Below are positions 15,158 to 30,600 of a stretch of DNA of 64,000 nt, in pieces. Every line of letters starts with the position of its first letter. The first letter of the stretch is position 1. The position numbers and the translations under genes were made by a program. Where the stretch lies: positions 372,001-436,000 of the forward strand of contig NZ_AP019309.1 of the NCBI RefSeq assembly GCF_003925875.1, read 5' to 3'. The notes below the pieces were generated by a model. It had not been told where the DNA came from. It did no database searches and saw only the letters and a list, made by a program, of their open reading frames with translations. Origin of the DNA: Intestinibaculum porci. Lineage in GTDB: Bacteria > Bacillota_I > Bacilli_A > Erysipelotrichales > Coprobacillaceae.

Positions 15158-16402
15158 ATGAATAAACAATCATTTCGCTTAGAAGCGGTGCGGTTATTTG
15201 AAAGCAAAGTCTTTCGTGATGCCATTCACGGTTATATTCATGTCGAATATTTACCAATCTGGTCCCTTATTAATACGTCGGCCATGCAGCGCTTACGTCG
15301 CATTAAGCAGTTAGGGGGCACGTATATGGTCTTCCAGTCGGCTGAACATTCTCGTTTTACCCATTCCCTGGGTGTTTATGAAGTGGTTTGTAAGATCCTT
15401 TCCTTAGAACAGGTGCGTGATCATCTCAGTGATTATGAAAAGTTATGTGTCATGTGTGCGGGCTTATTACACGATGTCGGCCATGGTCCTTTCTCTCATT
15501 CTTTTGAAAGTATTGGCGGGAATCATGAAGAGATGAGTATTCGGATCATTAAAGAAGATCCGCAGATTGTCTCGATCCTTTCGCAGATCGATCCAGAGAT
15601 GCCCGCTGATGTGGCGGCGATCATTGAAAAGAAAGCCAAACCGTTGCTCGTGTCGATGGTCTCTTCACAGTTAGATGCCGATCGCATGGATTATTTGTTA
15701 CGGGATTCCTATTCCTGCGGCGTAACGTATGGAGAATTTGATATGTCTCGTATTCTTCGGACCTTACGTATTCAGGATGATCGCATTGTCTTTAAAGCCT
15801 CAGGTGTGCAGGCAATTGAAGATTACATCTTAGCCCGCTATCACATGTACTGGCAGGTTTACTATCATCCGACCATTCGCGCTTACGAACATTTATTACA
15901 GGCAATTATGCGCCGTTTTATTGATTTATATCAGGACGGTTATCACTTCCAGAGTGATATCAGCGATCTGATTCCAGTGATCACGCAAAAGTGCACCGTA
16001 GAAGAATATGAGCGATTAGATGAAAGTATCATGATGTATCACTTCAGTTGTTTTATGCGTGAGAAAGATCCTATTTTGAGTGATTTATCAGAGCGTTTCC
16101 TCAATCGCCACTTATTCAAATATAAATCACTCACATCCCCGGAAGCTTATCATCATATCGAAGCGATTTCTGACGCCCAGGGTTTTGATCATCGCTATTA
16201 TGTCACCAGTGATTTTGCGAAGAATGTGCCTTATCGGCACTATGAGATTTCCGATCATTCGGCAGAAATTGAAATCTTAGATGATGATGGTCAGGTCGTC
16301 TCACTGCCGGAGCGATCAGAGATCGTATCCGCGATTATTCATGCGAAAGCTAAAGAAGATGCGAAAGTCTTCTTTGTGAAAGAAATTAAGAATCTTGTGT
16401 AG
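15158..16402 (+). CDS. HD-domain phosphohydrolase, dGTPase-like
   Basis: A 414-residue HD-superfamily protein. It contains RDAIHGYIHVEY near the N terminus, HSRFTHSLGVYEV, LLHDVGHGPFSHSFE (the HD motif) and SSQLDADRMDYLLRDSY, the metal-binding pattern of dGTP triphosphohydrolase-like enzymes (COG1078, the B. subtilis YwfO type). YwfO-like enzymes hydrolyse deoxynucleoside triphosphates, but the substrate here is not settled. The start at 15158 follows AAAGGTGGTGG. It forms an operon with the YwiB-like and cardiolipin synthase genes (11-base gap, then ATGA overlap). Confidence 0.9.
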   Translation: MNKQSFRLEAVRLFESKVFRDAIHGYIHVEYLPIWSLINTSAMQRLRRIKQLGGTYMVFQSAEHSRFTHSLGVYEVVCKILSLEQVRDHLSDYEKLCVMCAGLLHDVGHGPFSHSFESIGGNHEEMSIRIIKEDPQIVSILSQIDPEMPADVAAIIEKKAKPLLVSMVSSQLDADRMDYLLRDSYSCGVTYGEFDMSRILRTLRIQDDRIVFKASGVQAIEDYILARYHMYWQVYYHPTIRAYEHLLQAIMRRFIDLYQDGYHFQSDISDLIPVITQKCTVEEYERLDESIMMYHFSCFMREKDPILSDLSERFLNRHLFKYKSLTSPEAYHHIEAISDAQGFDHRYYVTSDFAKNVPYRHYEISDHSAEIEILDDDGQVVSLPERSEIVSAIIHAKAKEDAKVFFVKEIKNLV

Positions 16403-16413
16403 AGGAGGCACTT

Positions 16414-16800
16414 ATGAGAAAGAAAATTTATTATAAAGCCGTCTTTGACTATGGCAGTCATAAGGAGTCTTTAACTTATGAAGAATTAGGGGACTACAGT
16501 TTTGAAAATAACTTTCATGTGGTCCGCTTTACGACCAAAGATGGGGCTATGCGTTTACAGTATAATGAAGAAGAAGTGATTCTGCATCATGATGCTTCGC
16601 ATCTTCTGTTTTCCATTGTCCAGGAGATTGATAATGACTATTCAAGCGCCCATGGCATGATTCCTTTACGCACCAAGGTGGAAAAATTAAGCGGGGATGA
16701 TCAGACATTGAAGTTTATTTATTGTTTATATCAGGGCGAGATGCTGGTCTCTCATGTGTATATCATGATGCGCATGAGTGATTTGAGTGAAGATGCATGA
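16414..16800 (+). CDS. DUF1934 (YwiB-like) calycin-fold protein
   Basis: A 128-residue cytosolic protein resembling B. subtilis YwiB. It is an all-beta barrel, seen as alternating hydrophobic and charged strands (FHVVRFTTKDGAMRLQYNEEEVILHH), ending with LVSHVYIMMRMSDL. The function of the family is unknown. AGAGGAGG precedes the ATG. Its stop overlaps the start of the cardiolipin synthase gene (ATGA). In some Bacillota YwiB neighbours argS/rpoE; here it is about 14 kb from that pair. Confidence 0.8.
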   Translation: MRKKIYYKAVFDYGSHKESLTYEELGDYSFENNFHVVRFTTKDGAMRLQYNEEEVILHHDASHLLFSIVQEIDNDYSSAHGMIPLRTKVEKLSGDDQTLKFIYCLYQGEMLVSHVYIMMRMSDLSEDA

Positions 16801-18320
16801 AAAAGCTATTAAAAATCTTTTTAAGTAAGTTCTTTGCCTATGCGTCCCTGATTGCCCTGCAGGCTGTTTACTTAGCCTTTCTGATGATGCGTTTTATTGA
16901 CTACAATAATATCGTTCATTGGGTCTGTGTCCTCTTTTCCTATATTGTCGTCATTTATCTTGTTTCCAAAGAAGAGAATACCAACTATAAGATCGCCTGG
17001 ATTATCGCTTTATTAATCTTCCCGGAAATTGGCGGGGTCTTCTACTTGCTGATAGGCAATAAAAGACCATCACTCTGGTTAAAACGGAAGTTAACGCCAG
17101 CGATTGAAAAGATGCAGGATAATATGTATCAGGATCCTGAGATCACTAAGCGTATTATTAATAAGAAAGCGATCTCCATGGACTACCTCATTCATCAGCA
17201 TTTCCCTATTTATAATCAGACCGATGCCAAATATTATGAATTAAGTGATTATTCTTATCATGATATGTTAAAGGATTTAAAAAATGCTAAACATTTCATC
17301 TTTATGGAATACTTTATTGTGGCTAAAGGGATGATGTTTGAAACGATTATTGAAATCCTTAGTCAGAAAGTAAAAGAAGGCGTTGATGTCCGTTTCATCT
17401 ATGATGATTTTGGTTCCGTTTCAACGATTCCTTTCCGCTTTAAACAAAAAATGGAAGATTTAGGTATCAAAACCGTTGCCTTTAACCGTTTTATTCCATT
17501 ATTTTCCGTTTCCCAGAACCATCGTGATCACCGCAAGATCTGTGTCATTGATGGTTATATCGGCTATTCCGGCGGCTTTAACTTAGCGGATGAATATATT
17601 AATGCAAAGATGCGTTTTGGTCACTGGAAAGATACGGGCATCCGTTTAGAAGGGGAAGCGGTCTGGTCCTTAACGACAATGTTCCTCTCGAACTTTTATC
17701 CTTATCATAAAGAGATGAGTCATGAAGATATTAATGCCTTTAAACCGCATGTCTATCATCCGGAACCCTTTCAGGGTCAGGGATATGTTTTACCTTATGG
17801 CGATGAACCATTAGATAATGAAACCGTTGGAGAAGATGTTTATCTCAATCTGATTACTCATGCATCAAAGTCTATTGATATTATGACCCCATATTTCATT
17901 ATCGATGATACAATGTTAAAAGCATTGACATTAGCCGCTAAAAGCGGTGTGAAAGTTCGCTTATTTACGCCACATGTACCTGATAAAAGAGCGGTTTTCA
18001 GAGTGACGCGTTCCTATTATTACTCGCTAATTGACAGCGGCATTGAGGTTTATGAATACCTGCCGGGTTTCCTGCATGCGAAAGTTATGCTCATTGATGG
18101 GAAGATTGCGACAGTTGGAACCATTAACTTTGATTATCGTTCTCTTTATCTTCATTTTGAATGTAATGTCCTTTTATACCAGGCGCCTTGTATTAAAAAT
18201 ATCCAGGCTGATTTCAACCGTATGTATCAGATCTCCAAACGGATGAATAAAGAAGAAACCTGGCATTATAAAGTGGGGGTTATTGAAGCGTTCTTACGCT
18301 TAGCAGCCCCGCTCCTCTAG
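16797..18320 (+). CDS. cls: Cardiolipin synthase
   Basis: A 507-residue membrane enzyme that condenses two phosphatidylglycerols to cardiolipin and glycerol. Two N-terminal helices (about residues 10-75) form the PLDc_N anchor. The first HKD motif is H245-x-K247-x4-D252 (HRKICVIDG) and the second H427-x-K429-x4-D434 (HAKVMLIDG), followed by GTINFDYRSL. Both catalytic motifs are intact. It overlaps the previous stop by ATGA and is the last gene of the HD-YwiB-cls operon, ending at a strong terminator. Confidence 0.95.
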   Translation: MKKLLKIFLSKFFAYASLIALQAVYLAFLMMRFIDYNNIVHWVCVLFSYIVVIYLVSKEENTNYKIAWIIALLIFPEIGGVFYLLIGNKRPSLWLKRKLTPAIEKMQDNMYQDPEITKRIINKKAISMDYLIHQHFPIYNQTDAKYYELSDYSYHDMLKDLKNAKHFIFMEYFIVAKGMMFETIIEILSQKVKEGVDVRFIYDDFGSVSTIPFRFKQKMEDLGIKTVAFNRFIPLFSVSQNHRDHRKICVIDGYIGYSGGFNLADEYINAKMRFGHWKDTGIRLEGEAVWSLTTMFLSNFYPYHKEMSHEDINAFKPHVYHPEPFQGQGYVLPYGDEPLDNETVGEDVYLNLITHASKSIDIMTPYFIIDDTMLKALTLAAKSGVKVRLFTPHVPDKRAVFRVTRSYYYSLIDSGIEVYEYLPGFLHAKVMLIDGKIATVGTINFDYRSLYLHFECNVLLYQAPCIKNIQADFNRMYQISKRMNKEETWHYKVGVIEAFLRLAAPLL

Positions 18321-18341
18321 CACACTTTTGTGTGCTTTTTT
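18319..18341 (+). terminator. Terminator of the HD-YwiB-cls operon
   Basis: Seven-pair stem AGCACAC/GTGTGCT with TTTT loop, followed by TTTTTT. Confidence 0.88.
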
Positions 18342-18370
18342 CCGTTCACGTCCGTTTTTGACCGTTTACG
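18341..18370 (+). promoter_or_regulatory. Three 10-bp direct repeats resembling LytTR binding sites
   Basis: TCCGTTCACG (18341), TCCGTTTTTG (18351) and ACCGTTTACG (18361) sit head to tail. The first and third match the LytTR-domain site pattern [TA][AC][CA]GTTN[AG][TC] completely; the middle one breaks it. The two good copies are 20 bp apart, about two helical turns and close to the 21-22 bp seen for LytTR regulators. They end ten bases before a -35 box, an activator position. A LytTR gene lies 0.9 kb downstream. Confidence 0.6.
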
Positions 18371-18379
18371 AAAAAAAGA

Positions 18380-18408
18380 TTGAATAAATTACTTTGTGAA
18401 ATTATAAT
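18380..18408 (+). promoter_or_regulatory. Strong promoter before the 13-codon ORF
   Basis: TTGAAT at 18380-18385, 17-bp spacer, perfect TATAAT at 18403-18408. The start is expected near 18415, followed by GAGGAGCG. Confidence 0.75.
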
Positions 18409-18433
18409 TTTATTTAGAAAGAGGAGCGATATT

Positions 18434-18475
18434 ATGTCATGGTATCTTAAAAATATTTTTTTTCAAATAAGATAG
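18434..18475 (+). CDS. Candidate 13-residue peptide ORF
   Basis: ATG to TAG encodes MSWYLKNIFFQIR, a short hydrophobic, net-positive peptide. Its support is context: a consensus promoter, LytTR-like repeats upstream, and a good ribosome site (AGGAGCG at 18422-18428, 5 bases before the ATG). The sequence CGCTCCT at 18495-18501 is fully complementary to that ribosome site, so the mRNA could fold back on itself. It might be a signal, toxin or leader peptide, or only a leader-region ORF. No homologue is recognised. Coding is unproven. Confidence 0.4.
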   Translation: MSWYLKNIFFQIR

Positions 18476-18509
18476 AGTTATATACATTTTTATGCGCTCC
18501 TTAACAAGA

Positions 18510-18536
18510 TTGACTTATTAAATAATAATGGATAAT
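18510..18536 (+). promoter_or_regulatory. Possible second promoter, before the thioredoxin-like gene
   Basis: TTGACT at 18510-18515 with GATAAT at 18531-18536 (15-bp spacer) or TAATAA at 17-bp spacing. Spacing is not ideal. Confidence 0.35.
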
Positions 18537-18559
18537 AATGGATGATTAAGGAGAATATT

Positions 18560-19252
18560 ATGAAACATACCAAGAAAACATTAATGATTGTATTATTTGT
18601 CGTAGTGGTCGTTGGACTCATTACGGTCTTAGGAAAAAAGGCGCATAAGAATAAGGATCCCTATGAGAGTTTATTTAAAATGTTTCCGGAAAGAAAAATA
18701 GATGTCGCTTCCATGATGGATCAAACAACAAAGCATCGCTATTATGTTTATATTTATAACCCTCAGCAAAAAGGCTCTCAAGCCTTAGAAAAAACGGTTA
18801 ACGATGCTGTTCAATATAACAGCAGTTTATATTTTTTAAATGTCAATGAGAACCTCAATGCAATTAAAAAATTTGACTGGCAAACCTTCAATACGCAAAA
18901 TGATCGTGAGATTGGCAAGGTTGTTAATGGCAAGATCATTTACAACAAAGGGGAATCAGCGGATCGCTATATCAAAACAACGAAAAAGGATCCCTATGGC
19001 GATCGGATCGTTTATACCATTCAGAAATATACCAAAGATTATGCAACATATAATATCAAGGCCAGACCAGGTAAAGTTTACGCGCGGATCACGCGTCCTT
19101 GGATTAACTATCGGCAATATCAAAAAGGAAAATTAACGCTGGGTGGAGGACCAACATTATTAGAAATCAATAAGAAAAAGATTGTTCATTTCGCTTATGA
19201 TACGAAGGAAATCACCGCCGTTATGAAACAGTGGGAAAAAGAAAATTCGTAA
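18560..19252 (+). CDS. Membrane-anchored thioredoxin-like protein lacking CxxC
   Basis: A 230-residue protein with a lysine-rich N terminus and one helix (TLMIVLFVVVVVGLITVLG), so most of it lies outside the membrane. The order YYVYIYNPQQKGSQALEKTVNDA, a FLNVNENLNAI strand, and a late GGGPTLLEINKKKIVHF with its cis-Pro-like PTLLEI fits a thioredoxin fold. Where the CxxC should be there is PQQKGSQ, so it cannot act as a dithiol oxidoreductase. Bacteriocin transport accessory proteins share this fold. AAGGAG precedes the ATG at 18560. It lies in the LytTR/ABC cluster. The fold assignment is my inference. Confidence 0.6.
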   Translation: MKHTKKTLMIVLFVVVVVGLITVLGKKAHKNKDPYESLFKMFPERKIDVASMMDQTTKHRYYVYIYNPQQKGSQALEKTVNDAVQYNSSLYFLNVNENLNAIKKFDWQTFNTQNDREIGKVVNGKIIYNKGESADRYIKTTKKDPYGDRIVYTIQKYTKDYATYNIKARPGKVYARITRPWINYRQYQKGKLTLGGGPTLLEINKKKIVHFAYDTKEITAVMKQWEKENS

Positions 19253-19300
19253 CAGAATGATGGGGATTGTATAAAAATGTGATGGGAGGAAGATTATGTT

Positions 19301-19993
19301 ATGGTGATTGAAATATACAGTCTTGATCGTGGGCTCATTCATCAACTCACAAAGATATTGGATGATCTTCAGCAAGATTGCAATTTTTGTTTTAAAATTG
19401 AATGTGGTATTCATAAGAAGGTGTCTCATATCGATGTATTGATTATTGATCTGGATTTAGGCGACAGAAGTAGAAGCATAGCGGAGTACTATAAAGATTG
19501 TGAACACATTAAAAAGATATTTGTAAGTCATTACAAGGATGATGTGTTTAAAATATTTAAATATCATCCTGCCTCATTTTTTGTGAAATATGATTACAGC
19601 TACGTCAAAGAAGAGCTCATGCGCTGCCTTCAGGAAGTTAAAAAGCAGACAGGGCTATTGTTTTGTAAGCAAAACGGAAGAGAGACCGCTTTGCCCATCA
19701 AAAATATCTTATCGATCAGTCAAAAAGATCACTTCGCAGAAATTACCATGTGTGATGGAACGGTGAATGTGATTCATGCCTCGCTTGGGACTTTAAAAAA
19801 TCAGTTAGGGTATCGCTTCTTTTTGATCAATCGCTCAGAAGTAGTCAATCTCGATTATATTCTCAGCACGAATGGAAAAGAATTGGATCTGATTGACGGC
19901 AGGCGATTTTGCGTTAGTCGTCGTAAACAAAAGGCATTTTTATCTTTATATTGTGCATATGATGATCATTTTTTGGTGAAAGAAGGCTATTAA
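19301..19993 (+). CDS. LytTR-family DNA-binding response regulator
   Basis: A 230-residue regulator. The N-terminal half is receiver-like with IDVLIIDLDLGDRS supplying the phospho-acceptor Asp. The usual acidic pair after strand 1 is reduced (EIYSLDRG), so phosphorylation may be atypical. The C-terminal LytTR domain (about residues 125-225) has LPIKNILSISQKDHFAEITM, the HASLGTLKNQL block, FFLINRSEVVNLDYI and the closing FCVSRRKQKAFLSLY. No histidine kinase gene is in the window. GGGAGGAAG lies before the ATG. LytTR-like repeats 0.9 kb upstream are the natural target. Confidence 0.88.
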   Translation: MVIEIYSLDRGLIHQLTKILDDLQQDCNFCFKIECGIHKKVSHIDVLIIDLDLGDRSRSIAEYYKDCEHIKKIFVSHYKDDVFKIFKYHPASFFVKYDYSYVKEELMRCLQEVKKQTGLLFCKQNGRETALPIKNILSISQKDHFAEITMCDGTVNVIHASLGTLKNQLGYRFFLINRSEVVNLDYILSTNGKELDLIDGRRFCVSRRKQKAFLSLYCAYDDHFLVKEGY

Positions 19994-20020
19994 GTCATAA
20001 AAGAATTTGGAGGTGATCCG

Positions 20021-21286
20021 ATGATTTCTATCTATGTTGATTTTATGAAAAAGGATCATGCTTCATCACGCATGATCCTTGGCAGTTTCTTTTTGTATTT
20101 ATTAGGGACAACTGTATTCTTTAATTTTGTGACTTTAAAGAATTCTGCCATCCAAGTGGATTACAATAAAATCTTTGATGAACGTTTTTATATTGCCTTA
20201 TTATCAATGGTGGGAATGATCATGATCTTAGTGTATATGAAGCATCTACTTGATCTCTATTTCACCTCTCATGCTCATGAGATGTTTCTGATGCGCAGTA
20301 TGGGCATTGGCATCAATCAGCTGATTATTATGGAAATACTCAAATTTATCGGTTTCTTTGTCATTGACTTTCTGATTTTAGGGGGATTAAGCCTGCTTTT
20401 CATGCCGTTATCAAATACGTTATTCACGTATCTGATCTTACGTCCTGATAATCTTCTGGGGATTTTATTAAGCGGTTTGATACTGCTTTTTTTCGTGATC
20501 ATCGCCATGTGGTATATGCTTTTCAGTTATGATTTATATGATTTGGAAATCTTAGGCGTCAGTCATGAACTTAAAGGCCATACATCCCATTTTACAGTTC
20601 CAGACTTTTTATACATCCTGATGTTTTTATTAGGACTCTATGCCTATTTTATGCCAGGCGCTCAGGAGATCGGCATCATTTTTGTGGCGATGGTTGGTGC
20701 CATTGGCGCTTATGGCTGTTTTGTCCAGGTATTGCCGCATTTTATCGAAGAATACGTCAATCAAATCAAAACCTCAGCGACCAAGGTGATTACCCTTACG
20801 GCCTTAAGTGAAGATCTCAAACGTTTTAAACTCAGTGTTTTTTATGTCTGTATCACACTTATTTTTATGACCAACTTTATCTATTTCTTTCCCCATTATC
20901 ATGTCTTAACCCAATTACTGCTCATTGCTTTAGCGATTATTAATATTATGACGGATATCGGTTTTGTCTTAAGTTTCCGCTTAACCCTTTCCCGTGATAC
21001 GGCTAAGTATCACTTACTGCGTTCGCTAGGCTTAGAGAAAAGAGCGCTGCTGGGGATGATTAAACATGAAATCATTTTGTTTTATAGCTGTTTCTTTCTC
21101 TTTAATGCGGCTTATTTAGCGGTGATCTTTAGTCATCTCTATACCGTGAGAGGGCATCATCAATTAGCGATGCTCATTATTCTTGCCAGCTTCGTGGGAC
21201 CATTACTGATCTCATTATTCATCAATGTGAAAGGAGTACACAAGTATTATGAAAATACAAACGAAGGGATTAGCGAAGAGCTTTAG
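20021..21286 (+). CDS. FtsX-type ABC transporter permease, short form
   Basis: A 421-residue membrane protein with about eight to ten hydrophobic helices and no large outer domain, half the size of BceB-like permeases. The region MYMKHLLDLYFTSHAHEMFLMRSMGIGINQL and the later RDTAKYHLLRSLGLEKRALLGMI are the repeated FtsX coupling segments that contact the ATPase. GGAGGTGATCCG lies before the ATG. The last 38 bases overlap the ATPase gene, so the two are co-translated. It follows the LytTR gene by 27 bases, a usual arrangement for regulator-plus-transporter units handling peptides. Confidence 0.78.
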   Translation: MISIYVDFMKKDHASSRMILGSFFLYLLGTTVFFNFVTLKNSAIQVDYNKIFDERFYIALLSMVGMIMILVYMKHLLDLYFTSHAHEMFLMRSMGIGINQLIIMEILKFIGFFVIDFLILGGLSLLFMPLSNTLFTYLILRPDNLLGILLSGLILLFFVIIAMWYMLFSYDLYDLEILGVSHELKGHTSHFTVPDFLYILMFLLGLYAYFMPGAQEIGIIFVAMVGAIGAYGCFVQVLPHFIEEYVNQIKTSATKVITLTALSEDLKRFKLSVFYVCITLIFMTNFIYFFPHYHVLTQLLLIALAIINIMTDIGFVLSFRLTLSRDTAKYHLLRSLGLEKRALLGMIKHEIILFYSCFFLFNAAYLAVIFSHLYTVRGHHQLAMLIILASFVGPLLISLFINVKGVHKYYENTNEGISEEL

Positions 21287-21980
21287 TGAAGGTAGTCATA
21301 CGAATCATGTTCTCGATGGGATTGATATTACTTTTGATGATCATTGCTTTAGTGCGATTATGGGCGCTTCCGGCAGTGGTAAAACTACGTTCATGAATAT
21401 CATCTCAACGTTAATGAAGCCTACTAAGGGACATGTTTACTATGATGGTCAGGATATTTCCACCCTCACAGAAAAAGAATTAACACAAACAAGATTAAAA
21501 CGATTTGCTTTTATCTTTCAAAAAAATAACCTGATGTCTTCTTTAACCATTAGGAATAATATTATTTTACCCTTAAAGATAGAAAATAAGATCTCTGCGA
21601 TTGAGAAGCTAGAAAGTATGGCTCAGGAATTTGGGATTAGTGAAATCTTAGATCAGTATCCTTATGAATGTTCTGGCGGTCAATGTCAGCGTGCTGCGAT
21701 TGTCAGAGCGTTGATGAAATCACCGGAGATGATCTTCTGTGATGAACCAACGGGGGCTTTAGATTATAAAAACAGTCTAAGCTTCATGCATACCCTGCAA
21801 AAGATGAATGAACAGGGGGTGGCCTTAATTGTCATTACCCATGATCCAATGGTAGCAGCATATGCGAAAGAAGTGTATTTCATGAAAGAAGGAAAGCTTT
21901 GTGAACACATCACGAAAGAAGGGACAAACAAAGAATTCTTAAAACAGATTCAGGAAGCGAGCTTTCAAGATCTTGCTTAA
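21249..21980 (+). CDS. ABC transporter ATP-binding protein (MacB/BceA type)
   Basis: A 243-residue ATPase with GASGSGKTT (Walker A), the Q-loop FAFIFQKNNL, the signature CSGGQCQRA (unusual Cys-Ser for the normal Leu/Met-Ser), and MIFCDEPTGALD (Walker B). It pairs with the overlapping permease at 20021. A 25-residue C-terminal extension follows the H-loop (ITHDP). AAAGGAG lies 14 bases before the ATG inside the permease gene. Confidence 0.9.
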   Translation: MKIQTKGLAKSFSEGSHTNHVLDGIDITFDDHCFSAIMGASGSGKTTFMNIISTLMKPTKGHVYYDGQDISTLTEKELTQTRLKRFAFIFQKNNLMSSLTIRNNIILPLKIENKISAIEKLESMAQEFGISEILDQYPYECSGGQCQRAAIVRALMKSPEMIFCDEPTGALDYKNSLSFMHTLQKMNEQGVALIVITHDPMVAAYAKEVYFMKEGKLCEHITKEGTNKEFLKQIQEASFQDLA

Positions 21981-22009
21981 AATGAGGAAGGATGATCCTT
22001 CCTCATTTT
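21979..22009. terminator. Strong bidirectional terminator
   Basis: Perfect 14-pair stem AAAATGAGGAAGGA/TCCTTCCTCATTTT with TGA loop, between the convergent ATPase and GNAT genes. Confidence 0.92.
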
Positions 22010-22539
22010 AAGCATAATCCCATCACTACGCTTACCTCATCCTGTTCAAGAATATGGAAACCATTTTTGGTATAAAAGGCGATTGCTGCTTTATTTTCTA
22101 AGGATACACCCAGCATCAGACCTTCTACATGTTCTTCTTTGAGTTTTTGAATCAGGGTCTGCATCAGTTGTGTTCCCAAATGCATACCACGAGTTTCTTT
22201 CAGTAAATCAATATGCAAGTGGGCGGGGTAATGTTCCTGATATTTTGCATAGATGTTCCATTCTTTTAAGGCTCGTTTATGATAAGCTGGAGGCATCTTA
22301 TTTAATATTTCCTTTTTATGAGACATAAAGGATAAATAATTGGAGGCACAAAGGATATAGCCATAAATAGATCCTTGATCTTCAATGAGATAGGCAATGC
22401 CATGATCTAAATAAGGATCTGCATACATTGCTAAAGTAAACTTTGCATGAATAGGGTCCACCATAGCTTTTGATGAGGTCATCATGGCTATATGTTCAAC
22501 CTGTTTTTTGTAACATGCCTGATATTCAATAATCTTCAT
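22003..22539 (-). CDS. GNAT family N-acetyltransferase
   Basis: A 178-residue acetyltransferase in the OGA/AcuA-like layout: a start of MKIIEYQACYKKQVEHIA, AYLIEDQGSIYGYILCAS, then HLHIDLLKETRGMHLGTQLMQTL (motif A, R/GxxxGxx) and LMLGVSLENKAAIAFYTKNGFHIL (motif B). That last pair resembles acetyltransferases found beside hexosaminidases, but the substrate is unknown. It is the only leftward gene in the 18-30 kb stretch. AAAGGAG lies before its ATG. Confidence 0.85.
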   Translation of the reverse strand: MKIIEYQACYKKQVEHIAMMTSSKAMVDPIHAKFTLAMYADPYLDHGIAYLIEDQGSIYGYILCASNYLSFMSHKKEILNKMPPAYHKRALKEWNIYAKYQEHYPAHLHIDLLKETRGMHLGTQLMQTLIQKLKEEHVEGLMLGVSLENKAAIAFYTKNGFHILEQDEVSVVMGLCLK

Positions 22540-22655
22540 AGAAACTCCTTTCTATCTCTTAACGGTAACGTAATTGCTTATAAAAATCAAAGTCTGTTCA
22601 TAATTGGAAAAACAGAATCGCTTCTAAATATATTTTTGTTTTTTTGTCTATATTA

Positions 22656-22684
22656 TTGTGAATGATATCATGAATTGATATAAT
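22656..22684 (+). promoter_or_regulatory. Promoter of the first lactococcin 972-like module
   Basis: TTGTGA at 22656-22661, 17-bp spacer, TATAAT at 22679-22684. The downstream bases GAAAGCG are the same as those after the promoter at 25361. Confidence 0.72.
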
Positions 22685-22733
22685 GAAAGCGTATTCAGAT
22701 ATAACAAATTGGGAATATGAAGGAGGTGGTTGT

Positions 22734-24692
22734 ATGCATAAACTTAAATATGCATTAGTGTGCGTATTGGCATTCACTCTTACAATCATTATTGGGGATA
22801 TGAGTGTGTATATGTCCAAAGCAGAACTTTTGGGGCGTATTGATGCAAACAATGAATCATTATCAGTGACCCTTGACTATAACATCAAGCATCCTGATTA
22901 CCTGGGCATCCTGAAGGTCTTAAAAAAAGAGAAGCTGACATATTATGGCTTGTCTTACCAAAATGAAAATAATCTTGTTTATCATATTCATTTTGCAAGC
23001 ATGCAAAATGAAGAAGAAGTCCTTGGACACCCATTTGATCAAGTCGTGACTTACCGGTATGGACAAAAGTTTGGAACCACAGAAACGATTACTATTCAGC
23101 CTTTTGATGACGCAAAAAAATATGATGAAATCATTGTCAACGGAGAAAATCTTGCTCCGCTATCCGACAAATTAAAAAGCTTGCGTGGGGTGATGGTCGA
23201 TAGCCGGGAAGTGCATAATGAAGTTCCGGCGATAAAATTAACGGATATCTTAAAGAAAGAGCCGTTACTTTTAGGTATTATGATCCTTGTTTTGATCCTC
23301 TGTATGGGCGATCTCTTTTGTCGTAGACAAAGATTTTATGCACTCAAGAAGCTGCATGGGTATGCATTGCCGGTTTATATGATCAAGGAAAGCTTAAGAT
23401 CATTGTGTCTAAGTAGTGTGGTCTTTATCATATCCTCATTACTGACCCGTATCTTACTGATTTATGATAATGATAATATTATCATGGGAAAATATTTATT
23501 GGCACTTTTAGGATTATTGCTGGCCTTGATGGCCCTTATTCATGTGATCATGATACTTTTTGCCTCTCGCTTATCAATCTTGTCACAAATGAAAGAAATT
23601 TATCAGTATCGTCTTTATGATTTACTTATTAAACCGATCATGGCTGTTGTCATGGTCATTCTTGCAATGCAGCTGACAGTATCTGTCGCGACAGCTTATC
23701 GCTATTCAAAACAGGTTCATACGTTATCGGTGATTGAAGAGAAAACCAGAGGTATGTTTCGTATTGATAGCTTTAAACAAGGGGTGAACTTATCACATAA
23801 AGGCTGGTCAAAGATAGTGGATCAAACCAATGAAATGGTCCAAAAACAAGGCGCTTTATATATTGATGCGGACAACTATACCAGCGAAGGCCGAGAAAAA
23901 GGTTTAGGTGAAATCTTAGAGAGAATCCCTAAAGGAATCCGGGTGAATGGGGCAATGATTCAGCTGTTTGCGATCAAAGATGAACAAGGAATAGTACACT
24001 TGGATAGGAAAAGAAATTATCAGAAGCATCCATTATTCTTAATTCCGCAAAAGTATAAAGATCAGGTATGGCTCAATAATGTCATTCAGGATTATCATGC
24101 GGAAGTGGATTACATTCCTAATCATCAGAAGATTTATAGTTTTAATACTGATGTGAATGTGAAAGAAGATGGCTGGATTGAAGATCCAATTATGGTGATT
24201 GATAGCCGTGAAGACTTTAATAACTATATGGTTCCGATCACTCCCTATAAAAGTGTTCAAGAAGTTTGTGCTCATTATGGCATCGGCAATGTCATTAACT
24301 ATGAACAGCCCGCTTCTAAAATGAAACAGTACGTTACCCAGACTAAAACACTATTAATGAAGACAATTGCTTATTGTCTCTTATATCTTGTCTTGGCGTT
24401 CTTTACCTTATATGAACTGGTTTATGTTTATTTTATCAATCATGCGCTAGAGATTGTATTAAAGAGAATTCATGGTCAAAAAACACTAAAAATGTATGCT
24501 GGATATTATACCCAGCTGATTGGCTTCTTTATCATTGTCATGATCATCTTAAGATTTGTCTTGCATAGTAATATGGCGATCATCACTACAGTTTTTTTAC
24601 TTATTATAAGTAGCATACTTAGTATGCTCATGCAAAATAAGATTGTTTCATCACATATTGTAGCAACGTTGAAGGGAGGAATATCATCATGA
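22734..24692 (+). CDS. Permease of bacteriocin-associated (lactococcin 972-like) ABC pair
   Basis: A 652-residue membrane protein with one N-terminal helix, an outer domain (about residues 30-185), four central helices (190-330), a second outer domain (340-540) and three C-terminal helices. This is the layout of the about 650-700-residue bacteriocin-associated integral membrane proteins found with lactococcin 972-type peptides (TIGR01654-like, from memory). GAAGGAGGTGG lies before the ATG at 22734, and the in-frame ATG at 22683 falls inside the -10 box. Its stop overlaps the ATPase start (ATGA). A related pair follows. It may export or confer immunity to a peptide; none is clearly encoded beside it. 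Confidence 0.68.
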   Translation: MHKLKYALVCVLAFTLTIIIGDMSVYMSKAELLGRIDANNESLSVTLDYNIKHPDYLGILKVLKKEKLTYYGLSYQNENNLVYHIHFASMQNEEEVLGHPFDQVVTYRYGQKFGTTETITIQPFDDAKKYDEIIVNGENLAPLSDKLKSLRGVMVDSREVHNEVPAIKLTDILKKEPLLLGIMILVLILCMGDLFCRRQRFYALKKLHGYALPVYMIKESLRSLCLSSVVFIISSLLTRILLIYDNDNIIMGKYLLALLGLLLALMALIHVIMILFASRLSILSQMKEIYQYRLYDLLIKPIMAVVMVILAMQLTVSVATAYRYSKQVHTLSVIEEKTRGMFRIDSFKQGVNLSHKGWSKIVDQTNEMVQKQGALYIDADNYTSEGREKGLGEILERIPKGIRVNGAMIQLFAIKDEQGIVHLDRKRNYQKHPLFLIPQKYKDQVWLNNVIQDYHAEVDYIPNHQKIYSFNTDVNVKEDGWIEDPIMVIDSREDFNNYMVPITPYKSVQEVCAHYGIGNVINYEQPASKMKQYVTQTKTLLMKTIAYCLLYLVLAFFTLYELVYVYFINHALEIVLKRIHGQKTLKMYAGYYTQLIGFFIIVMIILRFVLHSNMAIITTVFLLIISSILSMLMQNKIVSSHIVATLKGGISS

Positions 24693-25288
24693 TTATTGAA
24701 TGCACACATTTACAAAAGCGTTTTGGTTCCCATATCGTGATTCAGGATTTTTCTTATACCTTCGATCATCCTGGTCTCTATGCTATTACGGGGAAATCAG
24801 GCAGTGGGAAAACAACTCTGTTAAATATGATTGGCGGCTTAGAAAAATGCAGTAAGGGAAGTGTAAAGGTAGATGGACAAGTTCTAAAAAATGCTAGACA
24901 GAAACGTTTATATTATCAAAAAGTAGCATTCTTATTTCAGAATTATGCGTTGCTTAACCATTTAAGCGTTGAAAAGAACTTATCAGAAATGACCTCATCT
25001 ACTGAGCAGGAGAGAGATACAGTGCTTGAAAAACTGCATATCACAGAAACGTTACATCAGAAAGTTCATGAACTTTCTGGTGGCCAGCAACAGCGTGTCG
25101 CTTTAGCCAGAGCTATTCTGCATGGAGGAGATGTGCTCTTATGTGATGAACCAACTGCTAACCTTGATGAAGAAAACAAGGAAGAAATCTTTCAGCTTAT
25201 TCAAGGTCTTTCACAAGATCGCATTGTCATTATTGTGACTCATGATTTATCCTTAGCGTCGCGCTGTGATCATCAAATCAGGCTCTAA
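24689..25288 (+). CDS. Short ABC ATPase, lactococcin 972 export type
   Basis: A 199-residue ATPase with TGKSGSGKTT, LFQNYALLNHLSVEKNL, LSGGQQQRVALARAI, LLCDEPTANLDEE and IVTHDLSLA. The small size and FQNYAL Q-loop fit the about 200-residue ATPases of the lactococcin 972 group (TIGR03608-like, from memory). It is translationally coupled to the 22734 permease by a 4-base overlap and ends at a strong terminator. Confidence 0.88.
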   Translation: MIIECTHLQKRFGSHIVIQDFSYTFDHPGLYAITGKSGSGKTTLLNMIGGLEKCSKGSVKVDGQVLKNARQKRLYYQKVAFLFQNYALLNHLSVEKNLSEMTSSTEQERDTVLEKLHITETLHQKVHELSGGQQQRVALARAILHGGDVLLCDEPTANLDEENKEEIFQLIQGLSQDRIVIIVTHDLSLASRCDHQIRL

Positions 25289-25291
25289 TAC

Positions 25292-25320
25292 AGGAGACTT
25301 TTTGAGTCTCCTATTTTTTT
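25292..25320 (+). terminator. Terminator after the first lactococcin 972-like module
   Basis: AGGAGACT/AGTCTCCT stem with TTTTG loop, then ATTTTTTT. Confidence 0.88.
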
Positions 25321-25337
25321 ACAAAGTTCTGAAATAA

Positions 25338-25366
25338 TTGCATAAGGATATTGTTTTTTTTATAAT
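25338..25366 (+). promoter_or_regulatory. Promoter of the second lactococcin 972-like module
   Basis: TTGCAT at 25338-25343, 17-bp spacer, TATAAT at 25361-25366, then GAAAGCGAATACAG, near-identical to the sequence after the 22679 promoter. Confidence 0.75.
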
Positions 25367-25392
25367 GAAAGCGAATACAGGGAGGGGTGACT

Positions 25393-27351
25393 ATGCGTAA
25401 GATTCTTGTATTATTTGTTGTTTTAGTTAATATCTTAGGCTTTCAGATGATTGTCAATATTTATCAAGAACAGGATGTTTCTGATGCTTACCATCTTTAT
25501 GGCTATAAGGATGGTAAGTATGTCTACCATGCAGAAATGAAATATGATGTGGATCAAGCGAAGCTTCTTGCCTGTTTGCATCATTTGTCACAAAAGTATG
25601 ATTGTATGATCTATCAGGAAGAGGCCAATGATGAAGAAAAGAGGATCCGCTATGATATCCTCTATGCTCACTCTTTAAAGTCTTTACATCTCATTACAAA
25701 TCATCACCAGGTATTAAGTGGTGATCATTATTACAGCAATCAAAAAGGAAAGGGGTACTACTTTTATACCTTAAACAAGGAGTATCAGGTTTCTTTACAT
25801 CATTTGACAAAGTTAAAAGGAACACAGTTTACGGTAGTTACTCAGGATTTTGAAGTCTTAAAACAAATAGAAGAGACGCTTTCCAAAGGGTTTCCAAAAC
25901 AGTTCCTAAGTTTTGAAAAGGTGACTCAGGAGCAGTATCATGGAGATCTGGAATTAAGAAGAAACTTAAAACAAATGCTTATTTTGATGAGTGTGTGTAC
26001 ACTTCTCATCTTAATGATTGATGTTTTTAAACGTTCAAGAACCTTTGGAATAATGAAAAGTGTGGGACTTAGTATAAATACCGTCTTGGTGAAAGTCTTT
26101 TCCTTTGAATTGAGTGTTTGCATCATTGTGCCAGTACTTACACTGGTGATCCTGTTCATCCTTTTTATTCATGTTTTGAATCAAGCAACGCTTTCTCTTT
26201 TGAGATCCCTCGCAGTCTTTGGAACTGGTGAAATCATTTGTACGATTATCTTGATCATGATTGCTAATGGGGTTATGTATCATCTCAACACTCTCAATCA
26301 GTTAAAAGGACAAGAAACCCATAAGGGATTATTAGCAGTTAATTACATTTTGAAAGGACTCTGTTTATTTCTGTTTGCGGGCGTGATTGTCAATAGTATT
26401 GGGGAGATTAAACAGGATGGCCGTTTCTTACTAGGCTCTTATGATCAAGTGGAAGGCTATTATATGATAAACGGACTTAAACGTTCCTATGTGAATGATG
26501 GCTATAATATTGAGAAATACAATGAGGGTAAGTTTGATGCTATGTATGATATGTATCAAAGAAATTATGATTATGCCAATAAAAATGGCGCTCTTTACTT
26601 TGAAGTATCGACGATGATGATTCATGATCAGCCCCATGATGTCCTCTTAGTCAATCAAAATTACATGAAACTTGTCTTACCGAAGCAGCGTTTTGATAAG
26701 CAGGCTATTACCTATATTGTACCACCAGATATCAGTGAACAAACAATCTTAGAAAATATCAATGATACCAAGGCGACAATCAAAGTCGTGCATCATCAAA
26801 TAGATCAATATCCTAACTTTGCGGCTGTTCAAGGACAAACGATTAAACATCCTTATTTTGCAGTTTATGGAGATCAGGCAGAAAGAATCAATAAAAGCTT
26901 ATTTGTAAATGTCTACTACCGTCAAAAGACATTACAAAAAGTACTTCATTATGCGCATTATGAAAATAAAGTGGAAATCACTAAAACAAAGGATATGGTA
27001 GAAAGCTATAAAGCCTCTATTAAAAATGATTTATACGGACAGGTAGAAAAGATTGCTTTACCATTAACAGTACTGGTCCTTATTTCAGTCGAATATATGT
27101 ACATGTATAGTAAGGTCTATCGTCTAAAACGTGCTGTTAAGTACTTGCTGGGACAGGGGATTATAGGACAGTATGGTGACTTATTCGTGGAATTACTGCT
27201 AGCTGATCTTTTCCTGATAGTGAAGGATCATAGTTTTAATGCCTATCTCTTCTATACCTTAACCATTTGTGTGGATCTGATTATTTTTATCATCATGTTT
27301 ATTAAATTACAACAAAAGAATGTGACATTAATATTGAAGGGAGAGGACTAG
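25393..27351 (+). CDS. Second bacteriocin-associated-type permease
   Basis: A 652-residue membrane protein with the same layout as the 22734 product: an N-terminal helix (ILVLFVVLVNILGFQMIV), an outer domain to about residue 190, four helices in 195-340, a second outer domain and three C-terminal helices. Sequence identity with the first is low to the eye, so it is an old duplication or separate acquisition. The ATG at 25393 behind GGGAGGGG is preferred to the GTG at 25387. Its stop abuts the next ATPase ATG. Confidence 0.68.
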   Translation: MRKILVLFVVLVNILGFQMIVNIYQEQDVSDAYHLYGYKDGKYVYHAEMKYDVDQAKLLACLHHLSQKYDCMIYQEEANDEEKRIRYDILYAHSLKSLHLITNHHQVLSGDHYYSNQKGKGYYFYTLNKEYQVSLHHLTKLKGTQFTVVTQDFEVLKQIEETLSKGFPKQFLSFEKVTQEQYHGDLELRRNLKQMLILMSVCTLLILMIDVFKRSRTFGIMKSVGLSINTVLVKVFSFELSVCIIVPVLTLVILFILFIHVLNQATLSLLRSLAVFGTGEIICTIILIMIANGVMYHLNTLNQLKGQETHKGLLAVNYILKGLCLFLFAGVIVNSIGEIKQDGRFLLGSYDQVEGYYMINGLKRSYVNDGYNIEKYNEGKFDAMYDMYQRNYDYANKNGALYFEVSTMMIHDQPHDVLLVNQNYMKLVLPKQRFDKQAITYIVPPDISEQTILENINDTKATIKVVHHQIDQYPNFAAVQGQTIKHPYFAVYGDQAERINKSLFVNVYYRQKTLQKVLHYAHYENKVEITKTKDMVESYKASIKNDLYGQVEKIALPLTVLVLISVEYMYMYSKVYRLKRAVKYLLGQGIIGQYGDLFVELLLADLFLIVKDHSFNAYLFYTLTICVDLIIFIIMFIKLQQKNVTLILKGED

Positions 27352-27972
27352 ATGATGGATGTGCGCAATATTTCAAAGAGCTATGGGCAGCATCAGGTTA
27401 TTAAAGACTTTTCTTATCATTTTGAGTTAGGACGTATGTATGCGATCGTAGGACCTTCAGGCAGTGGAAAATCCACCTTAGTGAATATGTTTGGACTGTT
27501 AGAAAAGCCTGATTCAGGAACATTAACCATTGATGGTCATAGTCAGGTAAAGCCTTCCTCTAGGCAAGCGATGGTATTAAGAAGAAAAACGATATCTTAT
27601 ATGTTTCAAAACTATGCGCTGATTCCCGAAGAAACTGTACAATACAATTTATCTTTAGTCTTAGATCGTCATGACAAGCAAAAGAAAGAGAAAATGTTAA
27701 AGGTATTAGATCAGGTGGGATTAGATCTTTCACTAAAAGAGAAAGTGTTTACCCTCTCTGGCGGTCAGCAGCAACGCGTTGCTTTAGCTCGTATTCTCTT
27801 ACGTCCAGGAAAGATTATTTTAGCGGACGAACCAACAGGAAATCTTGATGCAATAAATCGTGATCGTATTCTTGCATATTTTAAGAAGCTTAAAGAAGGG
27901 CGTATCATTATTATCGTCACACATGATCAAGAAGTAGCGCAATACTGTGATGACATCATTAGTCTAGCGTAA
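27352..27972 (+). CDS. Short ABC ATPase partner of the second permease
   Basis: A 206-residue ATPase with GPSGSGKSTL, YMFQNYALIPEETVQYNL, LSGGQQQRVALARIL, ILADEPTGNLD and IVTHDQEVA. The length matches the lactococcin 972-group ATPases. It starts directly after the permease stop (ATGATG), with GGGAGAGG ahead of it. Confidence 0.88.
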   Translation: MMDVRNISKSYGQHQVIKDFSYHFELGRMYAIVGPSGSGKSTLVNMFGLLEKPDSGTLTIDGHSQVKPSSRQAMVLRRKTISYMFQNYALIPEETVQYNLSLVLDRHDKQKKEKMLKVLDQVGLDLSLKEKVFTLSGGQQQRVALARILLRPGKIILADEPTGNLDAINRDRILAYFKKLKEGRIIIIVTHDQEVAQYCDDIISLA

Positions 27973-28068
27973 ATGTATTCTAAAATGGAACAGTGGTATA
28001 ATTAAGGTAGAAGATAGATTCTATTACTTATGAGAGGAATGATCGAAATGCTTATTGAAGTTCAATAA

Positions 28069-28164
28069 TTGATATTTGAAAGGCCTTATAGGAAATTAAA
28101 AAATATTAGCAAAGCTGTATTAGTTTTATTGAGTATTATTTCGCTTAATGTAAGTGAAATTTAA
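28069..28164 (+). other. Signal-peptide-like reading frame, possible relic of a small secreted peptide
   Basis: From a TTG at 28069 one frame reads FERPYRKLKNISKAV followed by LVLLSIISLNVSEI and a stop. Basic residues before a short hydrophobic stretch look like the signal sequence of a small exported peptide, in the place where a bacteriocin precursor would sit. There is no good ribosome site or ATG and no mature part, so a functional gene is doubtful. Confidence 0.15.
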
Positions 28165-28179
28165 TTCGGGGTGATTGTC

Positions 28180-28398
28180 ATGAAGACTAAAAAATATGGA
28201 ACAATCTTTATTATTTTTACGATCTTACTTGTGGCTATGATGATTTACTGTCATGTTTATCGGACAAAGATTTACTATCGTGATATGAGCGTCGTATTAT
28301 TGAATTTGTATTACTTTTCATCCGTGGGACGGTATATCTGCGGCCTTGTTTTGTGGGTTGAACAGGTATTGCTCTTAAGAGAAATTTCAAAGAAGTAA
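28180..28398 (+). CDS. Small two-helix membrane protein, unknown
   Basis: A 72-residue protein, MKTKKYGTIFIIFTILLVAM at the start and a second hydrophobic stretch VLLNLYYFSSVGRYICGLVL, with a basic C terminus. GGGGTGATTGTC lies before the ATG. Small two-helix proteins beside bacteriocin transporters are often immunity or accessory factors, but I recognise no family. It ends at its own terminator. Confidence 0.55.
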   Translation: MKTKKYGTIFIIFTILLVAMMIYCHVYRTKIYYRDMSVVLLNLYYFSSVGRYICGLVLWVEQVLLLREISKK

Positions 28399-28405
28399 AC
28401 TTATG

Positions 28406-28436
28406 AGGAGATTTCATTTGGGAAATCTCCTTTTTC
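28406..28436 (+). terminator. Terminator after the small membrane protein
   Basis: GGAGATTTC/GAAATCTCC nine-pair stem followed by TTTTT. Confidence 0.87.
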
Positions 28437-28442
28437 CGTGGC

Positions 28443-28463
28443 GTCAACGTAAAAAACGTTGAC
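28443..28463. promoter_or_regulatory. Inverted repeat overlapping the argS -35 box
   Basis: GTCAACGT-AAAAA-ACGTTGAC, a perfect eight-pair inverted repeat whose right arm supplies the -35 box TTGACA (28459-28464). A likely -10 is TATTGT at 28481-28486. A second palindrome, ATTGTA-T-TACAAT (28482-28494), covers the -10. Either may be an operator. Confidence 0.45.
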
Positions 28464-28522
28464 AGGAGCGAGAAATATGATATTGTATTACAATGTATAA
28501 AAATGTTTAACAGGAGGTAATT

Positions 28523-30184
28523 ATGGCTGCGAATAAGCTTGAGAGCACATTACAGGAAGCTTTAAAAAATGCCATTGTCAAAGCTGGTCTCAGCGATGAT
28601 ATTGAGGCTTCAAAAATTAATATTGAAATTCCTAAAGATAAATCGCATGGCGATTATTCATCTAATATTGCGATGCAGTTAACAAGAGTTTTACACCGTA
28701 ATCCAAGAGAAATTGCACAGCAGATCGTTGATGCATTAGATAAGGAAGCCGGATCTATTGATCGGGTTGAAATTGCCGGACCAGGATTCTTAAATTTCTT
28801 TATGAAGAATGATGCGTTAACATCTATTATTAAAGAAGTATTAACGGAAAAAGAAAACTATGGTGCCAGTGATTTTGGGAAAGGGATCAAATACGATGTA
28901 GAATTTGTCTCTGCCAATCCAACCGGTGATTTACATTTAGGCCATGCTAAAGGGGCTGCTGTTGGTGACAGTATTGTCCGTATTATGAGAAAAGCAGGCT
29001 ATGATGTGACAGCAGAATACTATATTAATGATGCTGGTAACCAGATTACGAATTTAGCATTATCTTTATATACGCGTTATTTAGCTTTATTTGGTATTGA
29101 AAGAGAAATGCCTAAAGATGGTTACTATGGTCAGGATGTCAAAGACATTGCGGCGAAAGTGAAAGAAGAACATGGGGATGAATTCCTTCATATTGATGAA
29201 GAAGAAGCTATTCATTTCTTTAGAAAATTAGGAACAGAACATGAATTACAGAAGATTAAAGATATCTTAAAGGAATTCAGAGTTCATTTTGATTACTGGT
29301 TCTCAGAAACATCACTCTATCGTGAAAATATGATTCAGCCAGTTATTGATGCTTTAGATGCAAAAGGCTACTTATATAAAGAAGATGGTGCTTTATGGTT
29401 CAGATCAACAGATTTTGATGATGATAAGGACCGTGTATTAATTAAGAAAGATGGTTCTTATACATATTTCACACCAGATATTGCTTATCATAAAAATAAA
29501 TTTGATCGTGGCTTCGATTACTTAGTTGATTTATTTGGCGCTGATCATCATGGTTACATCAATCGTATGAAAGCGGCGATGCAGGCTTTAGGCTATAATA
29601 AAGATCAGTTAAATATTGATATTATGCAGTTAGTCCAGATGGTGGAAAATGGTGAAGTTGTCAAGATGAGTAAACGTACTGGCAATGCCGTTACCATTAA
29701 AGACTTAATTGAAGAGATCGGTGTTGATGCAACCCGTTACTTCTTCGTTTCTAAAGCTGCTAATACACCATTTGAATTTGATTTAGGCTTAGCCAAATCT
29801 CAGTCCAATGAAAACCCTGTTTACTATGCTCAGTACGCTCATGCCAGATTATGTTCAATCATGCGCAGTGCGAAAGAACAGGGCTACGCATGCGCTGATC
29901 ATTATGAATTATTAACAAATCCAAAAGAAGTGGATTTATTAAAACAGATCGGTGAATTCAGAAATGTCATTATTGATGCAGCAAAAGCGCGTGCACCACA
30001 TAAGGTGGCGAACTATATTCAGAAACTTGCGCAATTATTCCATTCATTCTATAATGATTGTTATGTATTAGACGAGGCAAACAGAGAATTATCTAACCAG
30101 CGTATCGCTTTATGCCTGGCTACAAAAACAACTTTAGCGAATGCTTTAAATGTCATTGGTGTATCAGCACCAGAAAAAATGTAG
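28523..30184 (+). CDS. argS: Arginyl-tRNA synthetase
   Basis: A 553-residue class I synthetase that charges tRNA-Arg. An N-terminal additional domain comes first (residues 1-115, ending GPGFLNFFM). Then VSANPTGDLHLGHAKGAAVGD carries the HIGH-type motif (HLGH), and VVKMSKRTGNAVTI is the KMSKS equivalent. The C-terminal anticodon-binding helix bundle includes NPVYYAQYAHARLCSIMR. CAGGAGG lies before the ATG. The rpoE gene starts nine bases after its stop, as in several Bacillota. Confidence 0.97.
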   Translation: MAANKLESTLQEALKNAIVKAGLSDDIEASKINIEIPKDKSHGDYSSNIAMQLTRVLHRNPREIAQQIVDALDKEAGSIDRVEIAGPGFLNFFMKNDALTSIIKEVLTEKENYGASDFGKGIKYDVEFVSANPTGDLHLGHAKGAAVGDSIVRIMRKAGYDVTAEYYINDAGNQITNLALSLYTRYLALFGIEREMPKDGYYGQDVKDIAAKVKEEHGDEFLHIDEEEAIHFFRKLGTEHELQKIKDILKEFRVHFDYWFSETSLYRENMIQPVIDALDAKGYLYKEDGALWFRSTDFDDDKDRVLIKKDGSYTYFTPDIAYHKNKFDRGFDYLVDLFGADHHGYINRMKAAMQALGYNKDQLNIDIMQLVQMVENGEVVKMSKRTGNAVTIKDLIEEIGVDATRYFFVSKAANTPFEFDLGLAKSQSNENPVYYAQYAHARLCSIMRSAKEQGYACADHYELLTNPKEVDLLKQIGEFRNVIIDAAKARAPHKVANYIQKLAQLFHSFYNDCYVLDEANRELSNQRIALCLATKTTLANALNVIGVSAPEKM

Positions 30185-30548: not shown

Positions 30549-30600
30549 TTTTGCTTTCATTGACTTACTCTGTCAGGATCATACTTTATGAAATTTTTGT

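Follow-up and report, generated by a model that had tools for sequence, protein, structure and literature searches.

A predicted LytTR-type operator and strong promoter ahead of a thioredoxin-like, regulator and ABC transporter operon in Intestinibaculum porci

The window, that is, the whole stretch of DNA analyzed, comprises 64,000 nucleotides of the Intestinibaculum porci genome (NZ_AP019309.1, positions 372,001 to 436,000); coordinates are those of the window unless given as genome positions. The cardiolipin synthase gene (cls) ends at an intrinsic terminator, and promoter P1, which follows it, therefore opens a new transcription unit. Downstream of P1 and in the same direction lie a 13-codon open reading frame (ORF), a thioredoxin-like gene, a LytTR regulator, a permease, and an ABC ATPase. 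Their spacing suggests that the five frames form one transcript, of which the short ORF is the first frame and which would start near 18415 and end at an inverted repeat near 21980 to 22009. The features are as follows.

18319 to 18336, plus strand: intrinsic terminator of the upstream cls gene (7-pair stem, T tail)
18341 to 18349, plus strand: LytTR-type direct repeat 1, 9-mer TCCGTTCAC (10-mer TCCGTTCACG, 18341 to 18350)
18351 to 18359, plus strand: degenerate middle repeat, 9-mer TCCGTTTTT (10-mer TCCGTTTTTG, 18351 to 18360)
18361 to 18369, plus strand: LytTR-type direct repeat 2, 9-mer ACCGTTTAC (10-mer ACCGTTTACG, 18361 to 18370)
18380 to 18408, plus strand: promoter P1, TTGAAT (18380 to 18385)-N17-TATAAT (18403 to 18408), promoter score 10/12
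18422 to 18428, plus strand: ribosome site AGGAGCG of the short ORF, able to pair with 18495 to 18501
18434 to 18475, plus strand: 13-codon ORF MSWYLKNIFFQIR, candidate leader ORF, with AGAGGAG preceding its ATG at 18434
18495 to 18504, plus strand: CGCTCCTTAA, complementary to both ribosome sites (18422 to 18428 and 18546 to 18553)
18510 to 18539, plus strand: possible second promoter P2, TTGACT-N18-AATAAT, promoter score 10/12
18546 to 18553, plus strand: TTAAGGAG, ribosome site of the thioredoxin-like gene
18560 to 19252 (alternative start 18542), plus strand: membrane-anchored thioredoxin-like protein without cysteine (weak fold support)
19301 to 19993, plus strand: ComE-like response regulator (receiver-like and LytTR domains), presumed to activate P1
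20021 to 21286, plus strand: ABC permease, resembling the permeases that adjoin thioredoxin-like genes in relatives
21249 to 21980, plus strand: ABC ATPase, scoring best, below cut-offs, with the bacteriocin-export, LolD, and MacB models of NCBIfam
21980 to 22009, no strand assigned: inverted repeat, possible operon terminator, seen by eye and absent from the terminator-scan list

The repeats, the TTGAAT-N17-TATAAT promoter, and the short ORF all lie where an earlier note on this DNA had placed them. That note described two complete matches to the LytTR site pattern. The two copies are indeed 20 bp apart, start to start, but the tandem array holds three copies rather than two, all in a 10-bp register. 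Likewise, each copy fits closely, but "complete" overstates agreement at eight of the nine positions of the LytTR consensus, [TA][AC][CA]GTTN[AG][TG]. The middle copy is weaker and retains CCGTT without ACG. As a 9-mer, the second repeat ends exactly 10 bp ahead of the −35 box, as the note had said, giving a 9-bp repeat, 11 bp, a 9-bp repeat, 10 bp, and the −35 box in succession. Two 9-bp direct repeats 11 to 13 bp apart and about 10 bp before a −35 box are the arrangement sought for a LytTR-type operator. The repeat region is also 81% an inverted repeat, in which CGTTYACG is nearly palindromic. Promoter-like sites as a class are not enriched here (20 in 18250 to 22750, against a shuffle mean of 18.5). 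With a ComE-like LytTR gene about 0.9 kb downstream, the note's central reading of a LytTR-type direct-repeat operator beside a strong promoter holds, and 18341 to 18370 is a well-supported prediction of such an operator.

A single LytTR-like 9-mer is not above chance, as 9-mers fitting eight of the nine consensus positions are common (576 on the plus strand and 514 on the minus strand). A lenient composite, defined as two such 9-mers 20 to 22 bp apart and 8 to 11 bp before a promoter scoring at least 9/12, occurred once in the window and 13 times in total over 40 dinucleotide shuffles (0.33 per window), a count that alone is not striking. The telling count is the stricter one, in which the promoter must match the real one in quality: 2 composites in the 40 shuffled windows did so. 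A pattern modeled on the site and tolerating three mismatches was found once, the shuffle mean being 0.01; the comparison is circular, since the site itself supplied the model.

The best control for the operator pattern is the rest of the genome. The pattern CCGTT-N15-CCGTT-N13-TTG, drawn up after sight of the window site and three others, had four exact matches genome-wide and eight with at most one mismatch, whereas the reversed-pattern control had four with at most one mismatch. The three other exact matches share ACCGTTGGNNACCAAAAATGACCGTT. Two of the four one-mismatch sites, at genome positions 1504793 and 2129033, resemble those three; the others lie at 389486 (inside cls) and 38419. The five similar sites (genome positions 1493599, 1504793 on the minus strand, 1656084 on the minus strand, 2129033 on the minus strand, and 2130887) stand 0, 4, 6, 7, or 8 mismatches from a common 35-mer, ACCGTTGGGCACCAAAAATGACCGTTGGGCACCAA, and the window site stands 17 from it. 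All five share the window site's distance to the −35 box and, by eye, have −10-like sequences 16 to 17 bp after it. The same arrangement is thus found at other promoters of the genome, with promoter contexts judged by eye. The CCGTT-repeat arrangement therefore appears to mark promoters in this genome, with the window site as a distinct member that has its own letters. The five similar sites are probably one regulon of another LytTR protein. Two of them precede similar proteins (YYDPKRTKE...) that we take to be small membrane proteins, and one precedes genes that we read as transposase-like.

The 19301 product matched the LytTR domain at 38.7 bits (cut-off, 22.6); the genome has 11 LytTR matches, 10 of them above the cut-off. 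Its structural model (mean pLDDT, 71.9) has an N-terminal half that is receiver-like with moderate confidence, and a PDB search with this model returned full-length ComE as the best match (E = 9e-10), followed by isolated LytTR domains (3d6w, AgrA). Pfam found no receiver in the product and found one in one of four aligned regulators, presumably that of Faecalibacillus intestinalis, with which the window regulator shares aspartates around residues 45 to 55. No GHKL-type histidine kinase gene adjoins the regulator or lies anywhere in the window, all eight genome matches being elsewhere. The 20021 permease itself matched neither a Pfam nor an NCBIfam family and is FtsX-like by our own reading. 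Judging from gene order, the operator-binding protein would be the 19301 product. The titles and abstracts of the literature searched contained no description of this operon.

A thioredoxin fold for the 18560 product is weakly indicated. The structural matches of its model (mean pLDDT, 66.6) are mostly thioredoxins, yet none reaches an E value of 0.001 or better; one of seven thioredoxin-like homologs had a weak Pfam hit, and a profile built from four of these proteins matched no PDB sequence. A CXXC motif is kept in all six distant homologs, but the window protein lacks cysteine altogether. Homologs were found in 6 of 43 family genomes and 6 of 315 order genomes (own genome included in both counts) and in 9 of 395 genomes of a class sample. 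In another family of the class, five of six homologs adjoin a response regulator that belongs to a type other than LytTR, and the six stretches around them contained no ORF matching a LytTR profile.

The operon is part of a tract of about 10.2 kb (18321 to 28522) between cls and an ORF at 28523 that we take to be argS-like. The tract holds the LytTR regulator, three ABC units (this operon and two more), and an ORF at 22003 to 22539 that we read as acetyltransferase-like. Within 22683 to 27972, two large membrane proteins are weakly similar to the bacteriocin-associated family TIGR01654, the first also matching DUF1430 over the cut-off, and each is followed by an ATPase resembling TIGR03608 below the cut-off. 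A 75-amino-acid membrane ORF with no family match follows these units at 28171. Farther on, a minus-strand ORF at 30557 to 31036 consists of near-perfect tandem repeats (PLTNPSRTPRE) and probably reflects an intergenic tandem repeat in the DNA, not a protein.

In the single other genome available for the genus (82% complete), a cls copy (73% identical) stands 75 bp before the argS-like gene, with no counterpart of the 10.2 kb, and a second, closer copy (82%) ends at a contig edge. This suggests, but does not settle, that the block was gained or lost as a whole. Neither 18300 to 19300 nor the thioredoxin-like protein had a match in that genome, an absence that is uncertain because the best cls copy stops at the contig edge and the other directly precedes the argS-like gene.

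Beyond the genus, a BLAST search of 43 family genomes with 18330 to 18560 at a loose limit gave, among the matches listed, only short ones besides the self-match (best E = 2e-4). The nine best that became loci are AT rich (G+C of 0.12 to 0.38 in the matched region) and had no CCGTT pair in 3 kb. A scan of genome contigs with the permease found no relative, and one with four of the seven thioredoxin-like proteins found three loci; neither viral contigs searched with the LytTR protein nor plasmids searched with the thioredoxin-like protein gave a match. No relative searched holds the leader or its ORF, so covariation has nothing to compare.

The gene grouping itself does recur. In F. intestinalis, placed in the same family as the source genome (Coprobacillaceae), one copy has a LytTR regulator, a gene that we read as a histidine kinase, a thioredoxin-like gene, and a permease in order. 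In two further genomes (G024 and G029), a short thioredoxin-like gene and two permease/ATPase pairs lie close to a divergent gene for a LytTR-domain protein. The permease is also present in the second F. intestinalis copy and on an 8.5-kb contig of another genome (G063), with no LytTR gene in the stretch examined, and in G031 the thioredoxin-like gene has no LytTR, permease, or other such neighbors. The association of LytTR, ABC transporter, and thioredoxin-like genes is therefore frequent but not constant, recurring in part of the family. By eye, the operons of Faecalibacillus, G024, and G029 are also preceded by repeated sequence, in letters that differ from the window's. LytTR proteins matched in 36 of 60 relatives (own genome included), the best-scoring foreign match at E = 9e-12 and 26% identity and the others at 20 to 35%; we do not claim orthology of the regulators. 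Immediately ahead of the thioredoxin-like gene, both F. intestinalis copies have a conserved element, AATACTTGAGTATAAA-N5/6-CTCTATAGTCTA, whose promoter spacer is 19 bp, and the same element precedes the first permease in G024 and G029, between the repeated sequence and the transporter operon. A 19-bp promoter spacer is typical of MerR-type control.

The 13-codon ORF is plausible without being remarkable. In the window, a strong ribosome-site motif precedes an ATG 28 times at gene starts, 13 times inside genes, and 17 times between genes; the intergenic matches fall at 13 positions, namely, this ORF, ten ORFs of 3 to 29 codons, and two of 60 and 82 codons. Some of these positions may be real starts. 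The region 18420 to 18504 is a large imperfect palindrome, and this alone gives the minus strand a similar short ORF (MYITLSYLKKNIFKIP, start 18487), likewise preceded by a ribosome site. A strict pattern (exact ribosome site and ATG, a serine-compatible codon, and Trp-Tyr-Leu-Lys-Asn), which would miss diverged peptides, matched 1 of 315 order genomes, its own; none of the other 314 matched, and on this basis we reject the peptide as a conserved signal. In five of eight upstream regions of related operons (300 bp each), a loose ribosome-site motif precedes a short ORF of at least 5 codons; one such ORF is a 5-codon TTG frame, 93 bp ahead of the second permease of G024, and none resembles the 13-codon peptide.

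In the leader RNA, CGCTCCT (18495 to 18501) pairs with the first ribosome site and CTCCTTAA (18497 to 18504) pairs with the second, TTAAGGAG. By computation the two pairings are mutually exclusive, and the second reaches the downstream ribosome site. In free RNA (18415 to 18620), the computed occupancy was 0.74 for the first pairing and 0.24 for the second. Blocking 18415 to 18450 raised the second to 0.98 and left the downstream ribosome site fully paired, up from 47%, and blocking 18459 to 18489 raised the second pairing to 0.93; with a block that reached 18500, the second pairing was abolished and the downstream site was 40% paired (all computed). Duplexes as strong appeared in shuffles of 18437 to 18543 in 9 of 2,000 cases for the first site, 60 of 2,000 for the second, and 1 of 2,000 for both, in a count that does not require the two sites to overlap. 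The hairpin at 18420 to 18504 gave a z score of −3.4 (2 of 1,000 shuffles), with boundaries chosen by eye. Wider windows gave −2.7, −1.6, and −0.06, the 3′ stem alone gave −1.6, and the full leader folded no better than shuffles (z = −0.06 and −0.04). Of 160 windows of 93 nucleotides sampled along the 64 kb, 9 had z scores of −2.5 or lower. A stem-length significance (47 of 5,000 shuffles) was discarded, as the best-scoring observed stem was another, AU/GU-rich pairing. Rfam returned four matches up to E = 1 in 16000 to 30000, all far below gathering scores. Since the pairing was noticed first and tested afterwards, in one genome and without covariation, its statistical support is moderate and post hoc, and a translational switch at the leader is possible, a lead rather than a result.

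Taken together, 18341 to 18408 is fairly likely to be the LytTR-controlled promoter of an autoregulated operon for the thioredoxin-like protein, regulator, permease, and ATPase, with the short ORF in its 5′ leader, most likely acting in cis if it is translated at all. The whole operon, rather than a peptide gene, is likely the simplest target of the operator. The 19301 regulator, once an unlinked kinase or the transporter module had activated it, would bind the two CCGTT repeats on the same DNA face, two turns apart, and would contact RNA polymerase at the −35 box, raising its own operon by positive feedback. Against this, P1 is near consensus and might fire without an activator, and a LytTR gene does not accompany every thioredoxin-like homolog. 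In a second, translational layer, ribosomes loading on the leader ORF would release CGCTCCTTAA, which could then mask the ribosome site of the following gene; translation of the leader would in this way temper operon output. Such a layer, in which occupation of the ORF flips this segment between the ribosome sites, active translation dampening and poor translation releasing the thioredoxin-like gene, seems doubtful to us; a transcript from P2 would also bypass the leader.

The first alternative is that the short ORF is incidental and the leader an ordinary 5′ untranslated region, so that only the operator and promoter count. We give this about an even chance: such ORFs are frequent between genes, this one is not found in relatives, and the full leader folds like its shuffles, but the complementarity of 18495 to 18504 to both ribosome sites and the z score of the local hairpin argue the other way.

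A second alternative assigns the repeats to a different LytTR protein, or to a non-LytTR reader of CGTTYACG palindromes, with the 19301 product acting elsewhere. The genome has LytTR proteins enough for this, the inverted-repeat symmetry would suit another regulator class, and no site of the similarly spaced five lies within about 1.5 kb of the 7 LytTR matches examined among the genome's 10 others, so that a LytTR-type site need not adjoin the gene of its regulator. We nevertheless consider it improbable, as the middle repeat keeps CCGTT but not ACG, favoring direct repeats; the other bases of the site differ from those of the five similar sites, as expected for a separate regulator; and the distance to the −35 box equals that of the genome's other LytTR-type sites and of the autoregulated LytTR operons of PMC6193735.

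The weakest alternative is the peptide proposed in the earlier note. LytTR regulators often control peptide genes, and this ORF has a strong ribosome site seven bases before its ATG and a LytTR-type promoter directly in front, but it is very unlikely that the LytTR regulator turns on a peptide of 13 residues serving as a signal, a toxin, or another effector in trans, given the 314 other order genomes without the strict pattern, the eight upstream regions without a similar peptide, the ten comparable short ORFs between genes (one, MYITLSYLKKNIFKIP, a product of the palindrome), and 13 residues with no visible leader, signal, or export sequence. The peptide is not conserved with the regulator: relatives do keep a LytTR gene without its frame, a pattern that the note had held to count against its reading, although these are distant relatives only. 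The idea of a peptide signal is unsupported, and the short ORF is more likely a feature of the RNA leader, or an accident, than a signal peptide.

A discovery in peptide signaling therefore does not stand. What the locus adds is a well-formed LytTR-type operator with measurable geometry, in a bacterium with 11 LytTR matches, and a grouping of LytTR, ABC transporter, and thioredoxin-like genes that recurs in part of the Coprobacillaceae. The leader switch, if true, would make a transporter operon responsive to the state of translation, with a polarity the reverse of that in erm and cat.

The operon resembles bacteriocin-associated ABC transporters in that its region's ATPases score best, below the cut-off, against the putative bacteriocin-export family TIGR03608 and in that it includes a thioredoxin-like membrane protein; unlike in those systems, no bacteriocin precursor was seen and the thioredoxin-like protein is cysteine free. 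Its leader can be set beside erm and cat, which are controlled by leader-ORF translational attenuators. As in these and in VmlR, a short ORF comes with a ribosome site of its own, and alternative pairings extend to the ribosome site of the next gene. In contrast to erm and cat, ribosomes on the window leader would conceal the downstream ribosome site instead of exposing it, and no stalling motif or inducer is known.

The sites of ComE and AgrA are pairs of direct repeats spaced by two helical turns beside the −35 box, and the window repeats share this pairing, spacing, and position. The regulator shares with the ComE, AgrA, and BlpR type its receiver-like and LytTR domains, and its model is closest to full-length ComE; in contrast to that type, the window has no GHKL-type kinase gene, and its ORF list has no secreted peptide precursor.

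In operons of the LytTR Regulatory System (LRS), according to PMC6193735, 9-bp repeats lie mostly 12 bp apart, with a minority at 11 or 13 bp, and preferentially 10 bp before the −35 box; the LytTR operons described there act in positive autoregulation, with binding shown for HdrR, and some include ABC transporter genes. The window site agrees in its 9-bp direct repeats, its 11-bp spacing (a minority there), and its 10 bp to the −35 box (PMC6193735, Table 3), and its operon likewise combines genes for a LytTR regulator, a membrane protein, and an ABC transporter. It departs from LRS operons in its CCGTT repeats, the tabulated ones being mostly of ACC-CTT types, and in gene order, the membrane-anchored thioredoxin-like protein preceding the regulator rather than following it and a permease gene standing directly after the regulator, where an LRS encodes its membrane inhibitor. 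LRS regulators also lack a receiver domain (PMC6193735), whereas the window regulator appears to have a receiver-like one despite the missing Pfam match. By geometry, the window site would thus work like LRS sites, whereas by domain content its regulator appears not to be of the LRS type and to stand nearer the ComE-type response regulators.
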